Source: Frankineae bacterium MT45
Lineage (GTDB): Bacteria > Actinomycetota > Actinomycetes > Mycobacteriales > Jatrophihabitantaceae
DNA: 64,000 nucleotides
Direction of reading: 5' to 3'
Assembly: GCA_900100325.1 (NCBI GenBank)
Contig: LT629697.1
Location: 248,001-312,000 of the forward strand
The stretch's first letter is position 1, and the number at the start of each line of letters is the position of its first letter. Positions 14,937 through 30,784 of this stretch are shown here, one piece after another. A program made the position numbers and the translations under genes. The notes beneath the pieces are model-generated. The model did no database searches and was not told where the DNA came from. It was given only the letters and a program-made list of their open reading frames with translations.

Positions 14937-14978
14937 GCTGATCGATCCGGGACGCCGAGCCGAGAGGGAGACCAACGG

Positions 14979-17900
14979 GTGCTGTTCAGCCGGTTGCGGC
15001 ATCGCGCCTGGTACGCCGCTTTCCTGTTCGTTCTCTCCACCCTCACCGTCGCCGCTTTCGCCGCCGGGCCCTTCTATGAGCGGGCCGTCGAGCAGGCTTC
15101 CCTGCAGGCCACCCTAGGAGAGGCATCGCCGGCTGCCCGTGGAATCGCGGCCCACGCCGACACCATCGACGATGCCCTGGCCGTGCTGCCGAAGGGTGAC
15201 ACCGCCTCGCTCTTCCGGGCCCCCGTGACCGGCTCCGACAACAACAACCTGCAGACGACACTTCAGGGGAAGAACTACTCGGCGACGGTCTCAGCCCGCA
15301 GCGAGCTCTGCGCCCACCTGACGATGGTCGCCGGCCGCTGCCCGCAGGGGGTCGGCGAGATCGTCGTCAGTTCGACCAGCGCGTCCGCCCTGAGCCTGCG
15401 GTTGGGTCAGCCCGTCACGCTCTCGGGCGTCGTCGACGGTGGGCCCTCATACCCGCTCGGGACCGCCCATATCGTCGGCGTCTACCGGGTATTCGACGCG
15501 GACGACGACTACTGGTTCGGACGGACGTACTCATCGGCCACCGGCACCTATACGCAGTCGCAGGCCGGCGCGGTGAGCCGCTACGTCGACACGTTCTTCA
15601 TCAGCGCGAGCTACGCCGCCGACCTGATGAGTCAGGTGACGCAGTTCAACAACGGGCGGCCGGCCGAAGCGCCCCTCCCCGACCCCTTCGACCGGTACGC
15701 GCAGGCCGCGCTCCTCGTCCACCGGGTCGGCATCGATGACACCGCACAACTGCGGGCCGCAGCCGAGGCGGCCACCGCCGCCGCCCAGACGGCCAGCAAC
15801 AACGGCCAGTCGTTGAGCGTCGGGACCAACCTGCCGAACCTGCTCGACACGGTGGAGCACGCGCGTAGCCAGTCCCGGTCGATCATCCCGGCCTTCGCGT
15901 TGCAGCTGGCCCTGGTCGTGCTCGCCGTAATGGCGATGGTGGTGGCGGCCGAGGTGGAGGAGCGGCAGCCGGAACTGGCCCTCGGACGGTTACGCGGTCG
16001 AGGCGCCCGGTCGGCAGCGGGGCCGTTCCTCACCGAGGCGGTCGCGCTGGTCGGCGGATCACTGGTGCCGGGTCTGGCCCTCTCCTGGTTCGTCACCCTG
16101 CTGCTGGCCCGCCGACAACTGCCACCCGGGACGTCGCTTGAGCTGCGCTGGGCACCGGTCGCGGCTGCGCTGGGCGGCGCGCTGCTCGCCCTCGCAATCT
16201 TCGCGATTCTCGTGCTCCGGGCAGCCCGCCGGCCAGTACTCGAGCTACTCCGCACCGTCCCGCGGACGGTCGGGCGCCGAGGGCTCGGGGTCTTCGAGGC
16301 GATGATCTTCTCGGCATCGGTGGCCGGCGTGGTGGTCGCCCTCTCCGGTGACCGGCACAACCTGCTCGTCTCCCTCGTGCCGGCGCTGCTGGCGGTTGCC
16401 GCTGGCCTGCTCGCCGCACAGTTGGCGGCTTGGGCCTGCTCGGCCATCGGCCGGCGGCTGCTCTGGCGGGGGCGGCTGGGGGCGGCGATGGCGGCGCTGC
16501 AGGCCGCCCGGCGCAGCGGCTTCCGTCGGGTTGTGCTGCTCGTCTGCATCACGACCGCGCTGGTCATCGCCGCCGTCGACCAGTGGAGCGTCGCGGCCGA
16601 GAATCGGTCGCGGGCGGCGGGTGTGCAGGTCGGTGCGCCGGTGGTGCTCACCACCGCGCCGACCACGCCGTCTCAGTTGCAGCAGGCGGTAAAGGCGGCC
16701 GATCCGGCCGAGCGGTTCGCGGTCCCCGTGGTTCTGCAGCAGTCCGAGAACGCGGTCTCGCCAGTGATCGCGACCGACCCGGTGGCCTTCGCGGCCGCCG
16801 CGTCCTGGGTCGAGGAGGGGGACCGGCCGCCGGCCAAGGCGCTGGCCCAACTCAGCCCGCCGGCCGCGGCCGCACCGATCCGGGTCACCGGGGATCACCT
16901 GCAATTGACAGGCGACTCCTCGCTGATCCGAACGCTGGACTCCGACTCGACGGCGGGCCCGGTGTCGCTGCGCTTCGAACTGCGCCGGACCGACGGTTCG
17001 ATGACCTCCGCTGATGTGGTGCTCCCCGAAGGTCACGTCCCAGGGCTGGTGCTCAATGTCCCGATCAGCGGCTGCCTGAGCGGGTGCCAGGTGCGCCGAC
17101 TCTCCCTGCAGCGCTCCCCATCGGACAACCAGCGCGTGCAGCTGGCACTGCGGATCAGTCAATTCGCCGTCGCCACCGGAAATCACCTCACGCCGGTCTC
17201 GCTCGGCACCCCGAACGACTGGGGGACGGTGCCGCCGGCCGACGGAGCGGCGCCGGCCGGACCCGATGAGTTCCTGCGCTTGGACGCCGACCCGAGCGGC
17301 AGTGGACTGGCGCTGACGGCGGTCAATGAGGGGAGCGACGCCGCGATCCGGCACCGCGATCTCCCCGACGTCATTCCGGCCATCAGTGGCGGATCGCTAC
17401 CGCCGAGCGGTGCGACGCTTGGCATCGACGGGCTGCCTCAGACGTTCGGAGTCGTGAGTCAGGCGCCGTACCTGCCACGCCTCGGAACCGTCGCAACCCC
17501 GCTGCTGACCGACCTCACCCTGGCCATCGCGGCGAGTGGCAACACGACGGCCGGCGACACCTTCCAGGTCTGGCTCAGCAGTGACGACCCCGGACAGGAA
17601 CGGGCCCTCGTCGCCGCGCTCCGCACACACGGGGTGACGATCGCCCAGCGTGAAACCGCGGCCCACGCGCAGCGGTTACTGGCCCAGACACCTCCGGCCT
17701 GGGCCGTCACCTTCGCCCTCCTCGTAGCTCTGGTAGCGACGCTGGTCGCGATGCTGATGATCATCGCTGTGGCCCTGACCTCCCGAGGCCCGCGCCGGAC
17801 CGATCTGGCCGCGATGCGACTGGTCGGCGTCCGCGGCGAGAGCCTTCGTCGGGCCGGTGTCGGCGAGCAACTGCTGGGCGTACTGCTCGGGGTGATAGTC

Positions 17901-18122
17901 GGGACGGTCGCCGGCGTCGTCGGCGCGGCGCTGGTGCTGCCGTCCCTGCCTATCTTCTCGTCGCCGCCGCTGGTCCCGATCTCGCTGCTGGCCACGGCCT
18001 GGCCGTCGGTGCTGCTGAGCACCCTCGTCGCCGCACTGCTCTTCGGCGCGGTCGGCTGGGCCGTCGCGCTCGCCGTGACCTCGGACTCCGGAGCGGCCGA
18101 GAGGCCCGGGGGTCTCCAGTGA
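14979..18122 (+). CDS. FtsX-like ABC transporter permease, double-length
   Basis: A protein of 1047 aa. An N-terminal membrane anchor (about residues 8-30) is followed by a ~280-residue extracytoplasmic domain, then a block of membrane helices (about 305-540), a second large external domain, and a final FtsX-like helical block (about 900-1035). This is the two-unit FtsX/MacB-type layout of actinobacterial exporters. GTG 14979 has GAGGGAG at 14964-14970. It overlaps the first ATPase gene by 4 bp (GTGA), so all three genes form one complex. The substrate is unknown; family members move lipids, peptides or antibiotics, or remodel the envelope. Confidence 0.87.
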   Translation: MLFSRLRHRAWYAAFLFVLSTLTVAAFAAGPFYERAVEQASLQATLGEASPAARGIAAHADTIDDALAVLPKGDTASLFRAPVTGSDNNNLQTTLQGKNYSATVSARSELCAHLTMVAGRCPQGVGEIVVSSTSASALSLRLGQPVTLSGVVDGGPSYPLGTAHIVGVYRVFDADDDYWFGRTYSSATGTYTQSQAGAVSRYVDTFFISASYAADLMSQVTQFNNGRPAEAPLPDPFDRYAQAALLVHRVGIDDTAQLRAAAEAATAAAQTASNNGQSLSVGTNLPNLLDTVEHARSQSRSIIPAFALQLALVVLAVMAMVVAAEVEERQPELALGRLRGRGARSAAGPFLTEAVALVGGSLVPGLALSWFVTLLLARRQLPPGTSLELRWAPVAAALGGALLALAIFAILVLRAARRPVLELLRTVPRTVGRRGLGVFEAMIFSASVAGVVVALSGDRHNLLVSLVPALLAVAAGLLAAQLAAWACSAIGRRLLWRGRLGAAMAALQAARRSGFRRVVLLVCITTALVIAAVDQWSVAAENRSRAAGVQVGAPVVLTTAPTTPSQLQQAVKAADPAERFAVPVVLQQSENAVSPVIATDPVAFAAAASWVEEGDRPPAKALAQLSPPAAAAPIRVTGDHLQLTGDSSLIRTLDSDSTAGPVSLRFELRRTDGSMTSADVVLPEGHVPGLVLNVPISGCLSGCQVRRLSLQRSPSDNQRVQLALRISQFAVATGNHLTPVSLGTPNDWGTVPPADGAAPAGPDEFLRLDADPSGSGLALTAVNEGSDAAIRHRDLPDVIPAISGGSLPPSGATLGIDGLPQTFGVVSQAPYLPRLGTVATPLLTDLTLAIAASGNTTAGDTFQVWLSSDDPGQERALVAALRTHGVTIAQRETAAHAQRLLAQTPPAWAVTFALLVALVATLVAMLMIIAVALTSRGPRRTDLAAMRLVGVRGESLRRAGVGEQLLGVLLGVIVGTVAGVVGAALVLPSLPIFSSPPLVPISLLATAWPSVLLSTLVAALLFGAVGWAVALAVTSDSGAAERPGGLQ

Positions 18123-27593: not shown

Positions 27594-28723
27594 GCGCCGA
27601 CCGGCTGGATCTCCGCACCCGCAATCGCACGCTGCTGCAGCGGCAACTCCTCCTGGAACGCAGCGAAATCACGCCGCTGGCCGCGATCGGGCACCTGATC
27701 GGCCTGCAGTCACAGGCGCCGATGCCCCCGTACTTCGGGCTCTGGTCCCGGTTGGCCAACTTCGCGCCGGCGGACCTCGCGGCGCTGCTGCTGAATCGCC
27801 AGGTGAGCCGGCTGGTGATGATGCGCAGCACGGTGCACCTGATGACCTCCACCGACGCCCTGGACCTGAGGCCGCTGCTACAGCCGATGCTCGACCGCAG
27901 TTTCGGATCCTCTGCCTTCAATCGAGCCCTCGTCGCCGGCGCGGTCGATCGCGACGAACTCACCGCGGCCGGTCGCGCGATCGTCGAGGAGGCCCCCCGC
28001 ACGGCGGCCGCCCTCGGCCGCGAACTGGCCGGACGCTGGCCGGAGGTCGACCCAGCCGCCCTGGCCCAGGCGATCCGGAGCTGGGTACCGCTGGTGCAAC
28101 TGCCGCCCCGGGGCATCTGGGGAAGTTCCGGCCAGACGACCTATGACACCGCCGAACACTGGCTGGCCGACCTTCCGCGGCCGACGACGAGCGAACCCCT
28201 CCCGGCACGTCTGGCCGAACTGACCCACCGCTACCTGGCCGCCTTCGGCCCGGCGAGTGTGGCCGATCTGCAGAAATGGTCAGGGCTGACCCGGCTGCGC
28301 GAGATCACCGACGGGCTTCCACTGCGCCGCTACCTCGACTCCGGCGGGCAGGAGTTGTTGGACGTCGAGGGAGGGCAACTGGTCGACGGGCAGACCCCGG
28401 CGCCGGTGCGACTACTCGCCGAGTTCGACAATGTGCTGCTCTCCCACGCTGAACGCAGTCACGTCTTCGACGACGGGCACCGGCTGAGGTTCATGACCCA
28501 GAACGGGTTGGTGAGTTCGACGGTTCTGGTCGACGGCTTCGTCGCCGGCCGGTGGCGGGCCGAGAAGATCGCGGCGGGTGAGCGGCCGCGCATCGCGGTA
28601 GAACTATTCGCGCGGGTCAGCGCCGCGCAGCGCCACGAGGTGACGGCCGAGGCGATCCGTCTGGGCGCGTTCATCGCTCCGGAGGCCGAGCGCGCCGACG
28701 TGACGATCGAGGTGGCGGGCTAG
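27590..28723 (+). CDS. Winged-helix DNA-binding domain protein (YcaQ/AlkX-related)
   Basis: A protein of 377 aa. The N-terminal RTRNRTLLQRQLLLER and IGHLIGLQSQAPMPPYFGLWSRL, then RLVMMRSTVHLM, match PF06224-type winged-helix proteins, related to the YcaQ/AlkX DNA glycosylase group. The central FGPASVADLQKWSGL and the final RPRIAVELF are also family positions. Many actinobacterial members lack a tested activity. It is coupled to the permease (ATGA) and is the last gene of the flavin-linked operon. Confidence 0.82.
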   Translation: MSADRLDLRTRNRTLLQRQLLLERSEITPLAAIGHLIGLQSQAPMPPYFGLWSRLANFAPADLAALLLNRQVSRLVMMRSTVHLMTSTDALDLRPLLQPMLDRSFGSSAFNRALVAGAVDRDELTAAGRAIVEEAPRTAAALGRELAGRWPEVDPAALAQAIRSWVPLVQLPPRGIWGSSGQTTYDTAEHWLADLPRPTTSEPLPARLAELTHRYLAAFGPASVADLQKWSGLTRLREITDGLPLRRYLDSGGQELLDVEGGQLVDGQTPAPVRLLAEFDNVLLSHAERSHVFDDGHRLRFMTQNGLVSSTVLVDGFVAGRWRAEKIAAGERPRIAVELFARVSAAQRHEVTAEAIRLGAFIAPEAERADVTIEVAG

Positions 28724-28759
28724 AGCGGTTGAGGCGTGGCGCTCGCTCAAAGGAGCCGG

Positions 28760-28805
28760 AAAATAAAACGGCTCCGGGTCTGTCACGAGGACAGACCCGG
28801 AGCCG
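28760..28805 (-). terminator. Strong intrinsic terminator (minus strand)
   Basis: A perfect 16-bp stem (28769-28784 with 28790-28805) and a 5-nt loop. On the minus strand it is followed by TTTTATTTT (28768-28760). On the plus strand no U-run follows, so it acts mainly on transcription coming from the right, where no minus-strand protein gene exists. Confidence 0.85.
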
Positions 28806-28856
28806 GCTAGCCGGTGAAGGAGCGCCGCATCGAGTGAACGATGGCGCTGGTGACTC

Positions 28857-29000
28857 GGTCTCGATGGAACCCCCGTGCCGCGAGACCGGCGTGCTGGACC
28901 CGATCGGAACCCCCGAACCGACTAAGTCCACTGTGTTCGATCAGATCCCCAGAACCGATCGAGCACCCCATTCGAATGAAGCCCCAGATCCACTCGAATG
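28857..29000. repeat. Tandem array of four C-loop (G-loop) hairpins, ~37-nt period
   Basis: Plus-strand stems: 28857-28863/28881-28887 (7 bp); 28896-28899/28926-28929 with inner 28904-28907/28918-28921; 28933-28942/28957-28966 (10 pairs with one U-G on the plus strand); 28969-28975/28994-29000 (7 bp). Loop C-runs: 28870-28874, 28910-28914, 28947-28950, 28982-28985. Unit starts are 39, 37 and 36 nt apart, and the loops share a CCCC-x-GA-x-CC core. Confidence 0.65.
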
Positions 29001-29047
29001 CTTGTCACACTTCTTTGCTAGCTGTAACCCTAAGTACCGCTAAAGAG

Positions 29048-29076
29048 AATTTAGCTTGCGTGGTACTCGAAGTCAA
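29048..29076 (-). promoter_or_regulatory. Minus-strand sigma70-like promoter
   Basis: Read on the minus strand: TTGACT (29076-29071), a 17-nt spacer, TAAATT (29053-29048). The predicted start is near 29041. A nested hairpin (29033-29067: AGTACC/GGTACT and GCTAAA/TTTAGC) overlaps the -10. The only downstream element before the terminator is the hairpin array. Confidence 0.5.
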
Positions 29077-29284
29077 GCAAACTTTTGCACGCTGAATGAA
29101 GACGCGTTCGGACCTTACAAACCGCCCATTCATATCGGACAAAAGCCATGGATTGTCGAGTGGTTACCGGCGAGTCAGAATTTTTTTACGCGAACCCCCG
29201 CGCCCCGGAAACGGAAGCGGAGAACTTGTTGAACCTCTAAATAGATTCTTCTCAGCATCTCCCGAATCCTGCCGATGGAAGGGC

Positions 29285-30784
29285 ATGACCGGAATGACGT
29301 TCCCGGTGTCGGGGACCGAAGCGCTTAGCGCTGACGTGCGGGGCACGCCTGTGAGCAAGCGCCGACTCGACCTGCTGCGCATCGCGGCGGCTGAGTCCAC
29401 CTCCGCACAACTCGCCTTGACGGTCACCAACAACGCCACCGCGCCTCGCGTCGTCTGGGCCAATGCCGCGCTGCTGGAGCTCCTCCACCTCGAGTCCGAG
29501 GACCTCGTCGGGCAGCCGCTCCTGGCTCCGGAGCCGGGGCACCTGCACGCCGTCGATCCCCGCGCTGCCGAGGCGCGCGCCGGGGACATCCGTGCGGTAG
29601 AACTGCGCGCCGTCGATCTACGTGGCGCCGAAACCCAGCCGTCCAAGTCCGGCCCCGACTGGAGCGAGGTCGTCATCGACGCTCTCGACCCAGTACTGCG
29701 CACCGACGACCCGCAGTGGCACAGCGCCACCGCGCGGATGCCCGATCGCAGCCTCGTTCAGGTTCAAGTCAGGGTCACCGCAGCCCCGGAGATCGGCTGG
29801 ATCGTCTCGCTGCGCCCGGTGAGTGATGAGGTCCGCGTCGCCGAGGAGGCCCAGCGCGAATCCGAGCACCGCTTCCGCGCCCTGGCCGACTATGCCCCGG
29901 TCGGCATCGTCGTCTCCGAGGCCGGAGTCCGGGTCGGGTACGTCAACGCCCGCTTCGCCGAGATCACCGGCCGCGAGCGCCCAGCGCTGCTCGGCACCCG
30001 GTGGCTCAACACGATCCACCCCGAAGACCTCCCCGGCCTGCTCGAGTCCCTCGACGAGGTGATGGCCGGCAAGCCGATCGAGGCCACCGTCCGGATCGTC
30101 TCGGCCTCCGACGCGCAGCGCTGGGCGCAGTTCCGGCTTGCCCCGGTCACCACCCCGCGCCGGGCCGGCGGCTTCATCGGCACCGTCGAGGACATCACGG
30201 CTCGCCGGGCCTGGGAGACGCAGCTGGCCTACCAGGCCGGACACGACGCCCTCACCGGGTTGGCCAACCGGCGCAACCTGATGGAGACGCTCACCGAACT
30301 CCTCACCAGCCGGCGCTCCCGCGATCACAAACTGGCGATCCTCTTCTGCGACCTCGACGACTTCAAGCGCATCAACGACACGCTGGGCCACGACGCCGGC
30401 GACCGCGTCCTCATCGAGGTGGCGCAGCGACTCACCGCCACCGCTCGCGATCACGACCTGGTCGCTCGCATCGCCGGCGACGAGTTCGTCGTCGTGATCC
30501 GCGAGATTCACGACATCGCCGACGCCGAAGCGGCGGCCGGACGCCAACTGGCCGCTCTGGTCCCGGCCTTCCACGTCGCCGGTCAGTCGGTGAGCATCTC
30601 GGCCAGCATCGGTCTCGCGCTGGCCGAGGACTACGACGACCCGACCTCGCTACTGCGCGCCGCCGACCGCAGCATGTACGTCGCCAAGGGCAGCGGTCAG
30701 GGAACGTTCCGATCGGCCACGACGAGCGGCCGCCGTGGTGGCCAGGAGCCGACCTTCGAGCCAGACAACCCGGAAATTCGATGA
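29285..30784 (+). CDS. PAS-GGDEF diguanylate cyclase
   Basis: 499 aa from ATG 29285 (GGAAGGG just upstream). Two PAS regions (about residues 20-180 and 200-310) precede a GGDEF domain (about 320-475). The active-site motif reads AGDEF (397-401), a variant that is often still active, and an RDHD inhibitory site lies five residues before it. DLDDFKRINDTLGHDAGD is canonical. Within PAS1 lies a five-fold pentad repeat (AVDPR, AAEAR, AGDIR, AVELR, AVDLR; 29549-29623). It makes cyclic di-GMP in response to a PAS signal. It is coupled to the HDOD gene by ATGA. The start could be further upstream, but the leader looks non-coding. Confidence 0.88.
   Translation: MTGMTFPVSGTEALSADVRGTPVSKRRLDLLRIAAAESTSAQLALTVTNNATAPRVVWANAALLELLHLESEDLVGQPLLAPEPGHLHAVDPRAAEARAGDIRAVELRAVDLRGAETQPSKSGPDWSEVVIDALDPVLRTDDPQWHSATARMPDRSLVQVQVRVTAAPEIGWIVSLRPVSDEVRVAEEAQRESEHRFRALADYAPVGIVVSEAGVRVGYVNARFAEITGRERPALLGTRWLNTIHPEDLPGLLESLDEVMAGKPIEATVRIVSASDAQRWAQFRLAPVTTPRRAGGFIGTVEDITARRAWETQLAYQAGHDALTGLANRRNLMETLTELLTSRRSRDHKLAILFCDLDDFKRINDTLGHDAGDRVLIEVAQRLTATARDHDLVARIAGDEFVVVIREIHDIADAEAAAGRQLAALVPAFHVAGQSVSISASIGLALAEDYDDPTSLLRAADRSMYVAKGSGQGTFRSATTSGRRGGQEPTFEPDNPEIR

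Follow-up and report, generated by a model that had tools for sequence, protein, structure and literature searches.

The four tandem hairpins lying between positions 28856 and 29001 of the window (the whole 64,000-nucleotide stretch of DNA analysed here) almost certainly mark one member of a multi-copy family of stand-alone small RNA genes, judging from sequence comparison. The family numbers seven loci in the window's genome (G000) and eight in a same-genus relative (G001), each with one to four hairpins capped by a G run, and promoter region, leader and terminator type are common to most of them. This family of G-capped sRNAs is previously undescribed. Rfam 15 gave no gathering-score match in the window, in the stretches surrounding the 14 other family loci in the two genomes (eight stretches searched up to E 5, six more at gathering score; L038, L053 and L055 are loci 2, 3 and 5 of G000) or in the C-loop RNA and flagellar stretches discussed below, and no account of the family was found among the top-ranked open-access literature matches. 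Papers on flagella in Actinobacteria (PMC10746217) and on PafBC (PMC6789036) likewise hold no lead on it.

The hairpin array of locus 1

The initial annotation had described four tandem hairpins with C or G runs in their loops, and all four are present where it had placed them. On the minus strand the loops carry G4 or G5 runs (C4 or C5 on plus) and follow one another at 35-40 nt, loop to loop. The loops proper are smaller than had been described because C3 and G8, and mostly also U2 and A9, can pair. Single units are not unusual: the window holds 8 strict units (G4 at loop positions 5-8, with 7 or all 8 of the stem pairs in register), and 200 first-order Markov resamples average 7.9. It is the clustering of the hairpins that exceeds chance, with 3 of the 8 strict units lying within 150 nt of one another at locus 1, which happens in 0 of 200 resamples; the fourth hairpin (28856-28889) falls out of strict register owing to an internal loop in its stem.

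The transcribed strand, previously considered ambiguous, can be assigned. Folding energy alone leaves the matter unsettled, since both strands beat their shuffles (z -5.70 on plus, -4.78 on minus). However, the sole promoter-like match in 28700-29330 is on minus (TTGACT, spacer 17, TAAATT, 29076-29048; 0.2 expected) and so is the sole terminator-like match (28805-28769; 0.7 expected, but with a stem of 16 bp). Because both align in the relative, and because the two-species consensus fold is better on the same strand (-99.8 on minus versus -84.8 on plus), locus 1 is read on minus. At locus 2 the consensus fold also favours the G-loop strand (-84.2 versus -61.3). Locus 1 seems to be a separate transcription unit, a small RNA with a gene of its own, with the following predicted parts:

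29071-29076, minus strand: -35 box TTGACT, promoter-like (9/12 together with the -10 box), conserved in the relative and matched in position in most siblings
29048-29053, minus strand: -10 box TAAATT, promoter-like, conserved in the relative
28758-29041, minus strand: predicted sRNA of locus 1, about 285 nt, from promoter and terminator matches, conservation and fold (z -4.78), with predicted ends
29021-29040, minus strand: 5' leader GCGGUAC....GUUACAGC, with related leaders in most siblings (29009-29082 is covered by model R3, whose training set included locus 1)
29004-29008, minus strand: 5' strand of a helix closing the hairpin array, GUGAC (GUGGC in the relative), by eye
28968-29001, minus strand: G-capped hairpin 1, loop AUCUGGGGCU, from unit extraction
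28933-28966, minus strand: G-capped hairpin 2, loop UUCUGGGGAU, with one pair G-U here and G-C in the relative
28896-28929, minus strand: G-capped hairpin 3, loop UUCGGGGGUU, from unit extraction
28856-28889, minus strand: G-capped hairpin 4, loop CACGGGGGUU, stem with internal loop
28850-28854, minus strand: 3' strand of the closing helix, GUCAC, by eye
28821-28848, minus strand: fifth hairpin GCGCC-AUCG...CGAU-GC-GGCGC without a G-run loop, from the fold (in the relative, by eye, a UUCG-capped variant)
28769-28805, minus strand: terminator-like stem (16 bp), then a U-rich tail, conserved in the relative

Conservation of locus 1 in the relative

Locus 1 is retained in G001: 233 bases align at 85% identity, and the promoter, the hairpins and the terminator all have aligned counterparts. 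The initial annotation had staked its reading on retention of the loop runs and on compensatory change in relatives. The runs are kept, the loops of all four hairpins being identical in the two species (4/4). Compensatory change is found across the units of the sibling loci but not within the two-species alignment of locus 1 on minus, in which no pair is changed on both sides (one is on plus); it takes hand realignment to bring out two such changes, in hairpins 1 and 3. On one flank, locus 1 adjoins a 419-aa AlkZ-like gene (PF06224), whose 419-aa counterpart adjoins the locus in G001, while the other flank differs, with a PAS-GGDEF gene in the window's genome and another gene in G001. A further GAACCCCCG, which had been reported at 29192, exists but is not conserved in the relative. 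Upstream of the locus 1 promoter, a block at 29114-29149 containing CCGATATGAAT.G.CGGTTTGT is conserved between both species.

Sibling loci in the two genomes

Siblings were found stepwise, each by models that had not been trained on them. Model R1, built from the four hairpins of locus 1, led to locus 2, which has three G-loop hairpins and is present in G001 (E 1.5e-7) as well as in G000 (E 1e-4); the two copies are orthologous. Model R2, built from the first three hairpins of loci 1 and 2, led to loci 3-5, which are weak on their own (E 0.005-0.87) and were confirmed by the common promoter region and leader, the G000 copy of locus 4 being found by the pattern of the leader. Model R3, a sequence-only model of the promoter and leader block of ten loci, led to locus 6 of each genome (E 2.6e-14 and 1.6e-10) and, more weakly, to locus 7 (E 9.7e-4 and 5.5e-3) and to locus 8 (4.5e-3), found only in G001. 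Loci 6-8 also bear G-loop hairpins, and by eye these are followed by terminator-like hairpins; locus 7 has a single unit and a different leader, and locus 8, present in one genome only, is without the TTGAC and box elements. The six G000 loci other than locus 1 lie at about 15.9, 44.6, 935, 1130, 1947 and 4104 kb. At loci 1 and 2 the hairpins are enclosed by a GUGAC/GUCAC helix, and in both species each of these two loci has kept a neighbour gene.

Between the -35 and -10 regions many siblings share a box, TTTCCNNGGAAANATT, whose 14 matches in both genomes (at most one mismatch) all fall at family loci 2-7 (14/14; two of them are the locus 5 palindrome read on the opposite strand), whereas a reversed control gave 0. 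The box is absent from loci 1 and 8, so that locus 1 may be regulated differently. The same interval holds, solely at family loci 2-7, a palindrome TTTCC-NN-GGAAA followed by ATT or similar (G000 C1 935286-935301, 1130252-1130267 and others), which is likely the operator of some regulator.

The G-capped unit

From the 15 loci, 36 units were extracted, 34 of them distinct (two of the three locus 4 hairpins of each genome are included, the other one being left out as weak or shifted; in G001, hairpin 2 of locus 4 is weak at -3.8 kcal/mol). In the 10-nt loop, position 2 is U in 32 units and position 3 is C in 35; position 4 is G in 29 (U in 5, A in 2); positions 5-7 are G in 36/36 and position 8 in 35; position 9 is A in 26 and position 10 is U in 28. 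A standard pair joins positions 3 and 8 in 34/34 distinct units (C-G 33, U-A 1) and positions 2 and 9 in 28/34, so that the cap is best given as U-C-[N]GGG-G-A, with the final G of the run able to pair and [N]GGG as a tetraloop. A control on these cap pairs was mixed. The loop is so biased in composition that slid partners can pair frequently too, and a slide of -2 or -3 even raises the share of standard pairs (85.3% vs 74.5%), though with no two-sided change.

The cap consensus, U-C-[G/U/A]GGG-G-A, is fixed while the stems vary with compensatory change, and the initial view of the array as a repeated structural unit rather than a repeated sequence is borne out, given the loop runs kept in the relative and stems that covary across units. 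Covariation in the stems was seen in 14 units and again in 36, where the score is 0.483 against a shuffled mean of 0.236 (0/500 shuffles as high; slid partners at most 0.244), with 51 stem cells changed on both sides versus a shuffled mean of 20.4; as the units are related, a shuffle number is not a probability. Eight pairs are changed on both sides in the 36 units, a number reached by 42/500 shuffles. The covariation derives mainly from the sibling loci and supports the predicted hairpins.

Multi-copy, intergenic inverted repeats could also act at the DNA level, as operators or as an interspersed repeat element, rather than as RNA. We consider this highly improbable: (i), most copies have a common promoter region in front and terminator-like hairpins behind (by eye beyond locus 1); (ii), the stems drift with compensatory change around a fixed cap; (iii), the G-loop strand has 31 G-U cells but 18 A-C cells; and (iv), the neighbour gene is kept at loci 1 and 2 in both species.

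Distribution

Searches with blastn and the models covered 24 genomes of the taxonomic family, and the order was covered by 298 genomes with R1 and 397 with R2 and R3. Convincing matches were obtained only in the two genus members, and the strict filters yielded no copy of the RNA family in the other 395 genomes sampled from the order; because of these filters, and because about 10 candidates were scored per genome in the order searches, diverged relatives may be missed. The other weak matches listed were all inspected as sequence and rejected. The match in G013 lies within a transketolase-like reading frame and that in G016 is a different short repeat; those in G003, G014, G018, G083, G274, G026, G021 and G109 lack the repeated unit when inspected as sequence, and the cap occurs in 0/6 of the remaining six. 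A pattern of promoter box plus leader gave four matches in the genome_contigs set (which may omit records near the window's genome), in unrelated phyla and taken as chance, and the loop pattern alone gave 11 matches in viral_contigs. In another genus of the taxonomic family, L030 carries at about 1500-1590 a short CTGATCGGGACC-like repeat of a different unit, seemingly after a reading frame.

Candidate partners of the G-capped hairpins

We hypothesize that locus 1 encodes one of several stand-alone, trans-acting small RNAs, each of which would display one to four hairpins capped U-C-[N]GGG-G-A and end in a terminator-like hairpin. On this view the caps would serve as an array of docking sites, which the siblings would use to pair with C-rich loops of other RNAs or to titrate such loops; the same genomes offer two candidate targets, the C6 loop of the flagellin leader and a conserved C-loop RNA with the polarity of 6C. 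We infer a titrating RNA from the anatomy: several RNAs in each genome repeat one cap, while their stems are interchangeable. That the caps dock on C-rich loops of RNA partners is the reading we rank first, owing to a matching RNA in both genomes and to the precedent of RosA and RoxS, although we would put it at slightly less than an even chance.

The C-loop RNA (G000 about 323359-323880; L139:3360-3880, plus strand) is an RNA-like intergenic stretch with multiple hairpins whose loops are C-rich (AUCCCCCCAGC, UCUCCCCUGU, UUCCCCCAGA and others), located about 12 kb from the flagellin leader and conserved in G001 (L141 about 17522-18040, minus strand). Both genomes have a promoter-like site there in matching position, and one has a terminator-like site as well; the predicted strand of the RNA rests on these matches, fold energies being indecisive. 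In a trimmed alignment 8 pairs are changed on both sides (5 on the other strand; 10 in a longer alignment). The 6C model scores it below threshold, at 21-24 bits for a cut-off of 47.

Loops of the family can pair with such C-rich loops over 7-9 nt, but in a 400 kb sample C5-C7 runs of any location do equally well (the comparison used 28 G runs, some of which are not unit loops). A specific flank match between C-rich and G-rich loops is not supported, complementarity beyond the run not exceeding background. Since the 7-9 nt of complementarity is no better than background, pairing is plausible only and leaves room for a protein partner; also counted against an RNA partner is that the cap can close to a tetraloop, with few bases free to pair.

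The alternative of a protein decoy, in which the G-capped hairpins bind an RNA-binding protein sequestered by the siblings in the manner of CsrB/RsmZ, is credible but distinctly short of likely. We rank it second, since the conserved cap beyond the G run and the mini-stem favour recognition of shape; the conserved U-C and A around the run suggest such recognition, as by a protein. Units repeated in several sibling copies, with stem and cap pairs preserved while their letters change, are also what a decoy would present, and the genome encodes both CsrA and its antagonist FliW. CsrA (82 bits) is in fact encoded in both genomes, and in G000 csrA adjoins fliW, a flgL-like gene, the flagellin gene and fliD. 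However, resident CsrA is an unlikely partner: its A-N-GGA motif occurs in 1/36 units, the A after the G run (26/36) is less constant than the Gs at loop positions 5-8 (35-36/36), and the CsrA-like hexaloop of the flagellin leader, ACGGAU, is not copied by the family loops. The sole point for CsrA is plain GGA in 27/36 units, and no candidate protein other than CsrA was identified.

The flagellin leader (L139:16045-16180, plus strand), whose last 110 or so bases are identical in both genomes, also bears on a third reading, direct control of C-loop mRNAs, where the G loops would pair with C-rich stretches of mRNA leaders (flagellin and others) and control their translation without any sponge role. 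The leader is ordered as a CCC-ACGGAU-GGG hairpin with the CsrA-like hexaloop, a GCCC-AACCCCCC-GGGC hairpin with the C6 loop, and the ribosome site. This C6 loop, placed between the CsrA-like hairpin and the ribosome site and identical in both genomes, would suit such control, as would a C6-loop hairpin between the flagellin and fliD genes; as complementarity of the flanks does not rise above background, we regard direct antisense control as quite unlikely and rank it third.

Other loop hairpins occur in the same region. The C6-loop hairpin between flagellin and fliD (L139 about 17025-17077, plus strand) is identical in the relative, as is a C7-loop hairpin upstream of a serA-like gene (L139:10294-10353, minus strand; 6C 28 bits for a cut-off of 47). 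Three tandem hairpins with CGGG(A)-type loops lie between flgN and a fliA-like sigma gene (L139 about 14970-15036, plus strand). The relative retains them, by eye with a two-sided change in one pair, and they may form another loop array in a flagellar leader. Near flagellar genes, G5/C5-loop hairpins number 7 in 3.7 kb of intergenic L139 (two of which belong to the C-loop RNA), with none in 1.1 kb of L140, for a background of 28 in 72 kb of a 20-stretch sample; because the intergenic sequence comes from crude gene calls, we give this enrichment little weight. A further reading, which we consider unlikely, is a two-sided loop code in which the G-capped sibling sRNAs and the C-loop RNA would compete by loop-loop contacts, C- and G-loops of flagellar leaders (flagellin, fliA-like sigma) tying motility to the balance alongside CsrA and FliW.

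Relation to known regulatory RNAs

CsrB and RsmZ consist of tandem hairpins with a repeated loop motif and exist as several sibling RNAs. The G-capped family resembles them on each of these counts, but differs in that their A-N-GGA loop motif appears in only one of its 36 units. The twin hairpins bound by ANTAR proteins have hexaloops with A at position 1 and G at position 4, a motif that differs by eye from the loop consensus of the family.

Closer in composition is RosA, a G-rich RNA that sponges the C-rich RoxS and FsrA in Bacillus subtilis; it is described as a single RNA whose G-rich regions number three, two being single-stranded (PMC8216469). RosA and the G-capped RNAs alike are stand-alone RNAs with several G-rich regions, and RosA faces sRNAs with C-rich regions; unlike RosA, the family has seven or eight sibling loci per genome, its G runs cap covarying hairpins and its partner is a candidate. 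The C-rich loops of 6C/B11 pair with G-rich ribosome sites (PMC10470900). 6C RNA/B11 (RF01066) shares with the family an actinobacterial origin and homopolymer runs in hairpin loops, but its loops are of C, whereas the predicted transcribed strand of the family carries G runs, the opposite polarity. RF01066 has no match in the window at its gathering score (47 bits) and is not among the six matches listed up to E 10 for 28700-29330; its sub-threshold matches lie elsewhere in the genome, at the C-loop RNA and upstream of the serA-like gene. The kinship to 6C RNA raised by the initial annotation is thus not upheld, given the opposite polarity and the lack of a listed 6C match for the stretch.

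Several homologous sRNA genes, which a separate RNA may antagonise, are also known elsewhere: CrfA sponges four sibling sRNAs, SisA-D (PMC12559287). SisA-D/CrfA and LhrC1-5 are alike to the family in this respect but belong to other phyla, and the opposing RNA is here only a candidate. We know of no loop motif shared between the family and SisA-D or LhrC.

A C run in a loop can signal a whole gene family on the opposite strand. With the exact unit, the siblings and candidate partners known, the question of titration is open to direct test. The familiar examples of regulatory RNAs that are built of repeated hairpins and encoded by several sibling genes come mainly from Proteobacteria and Listeria. 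In a bacterium of this kind, with genes for CsrA and FliW as well, a family whose cap is fixed as [N]GGG would represent a new system.
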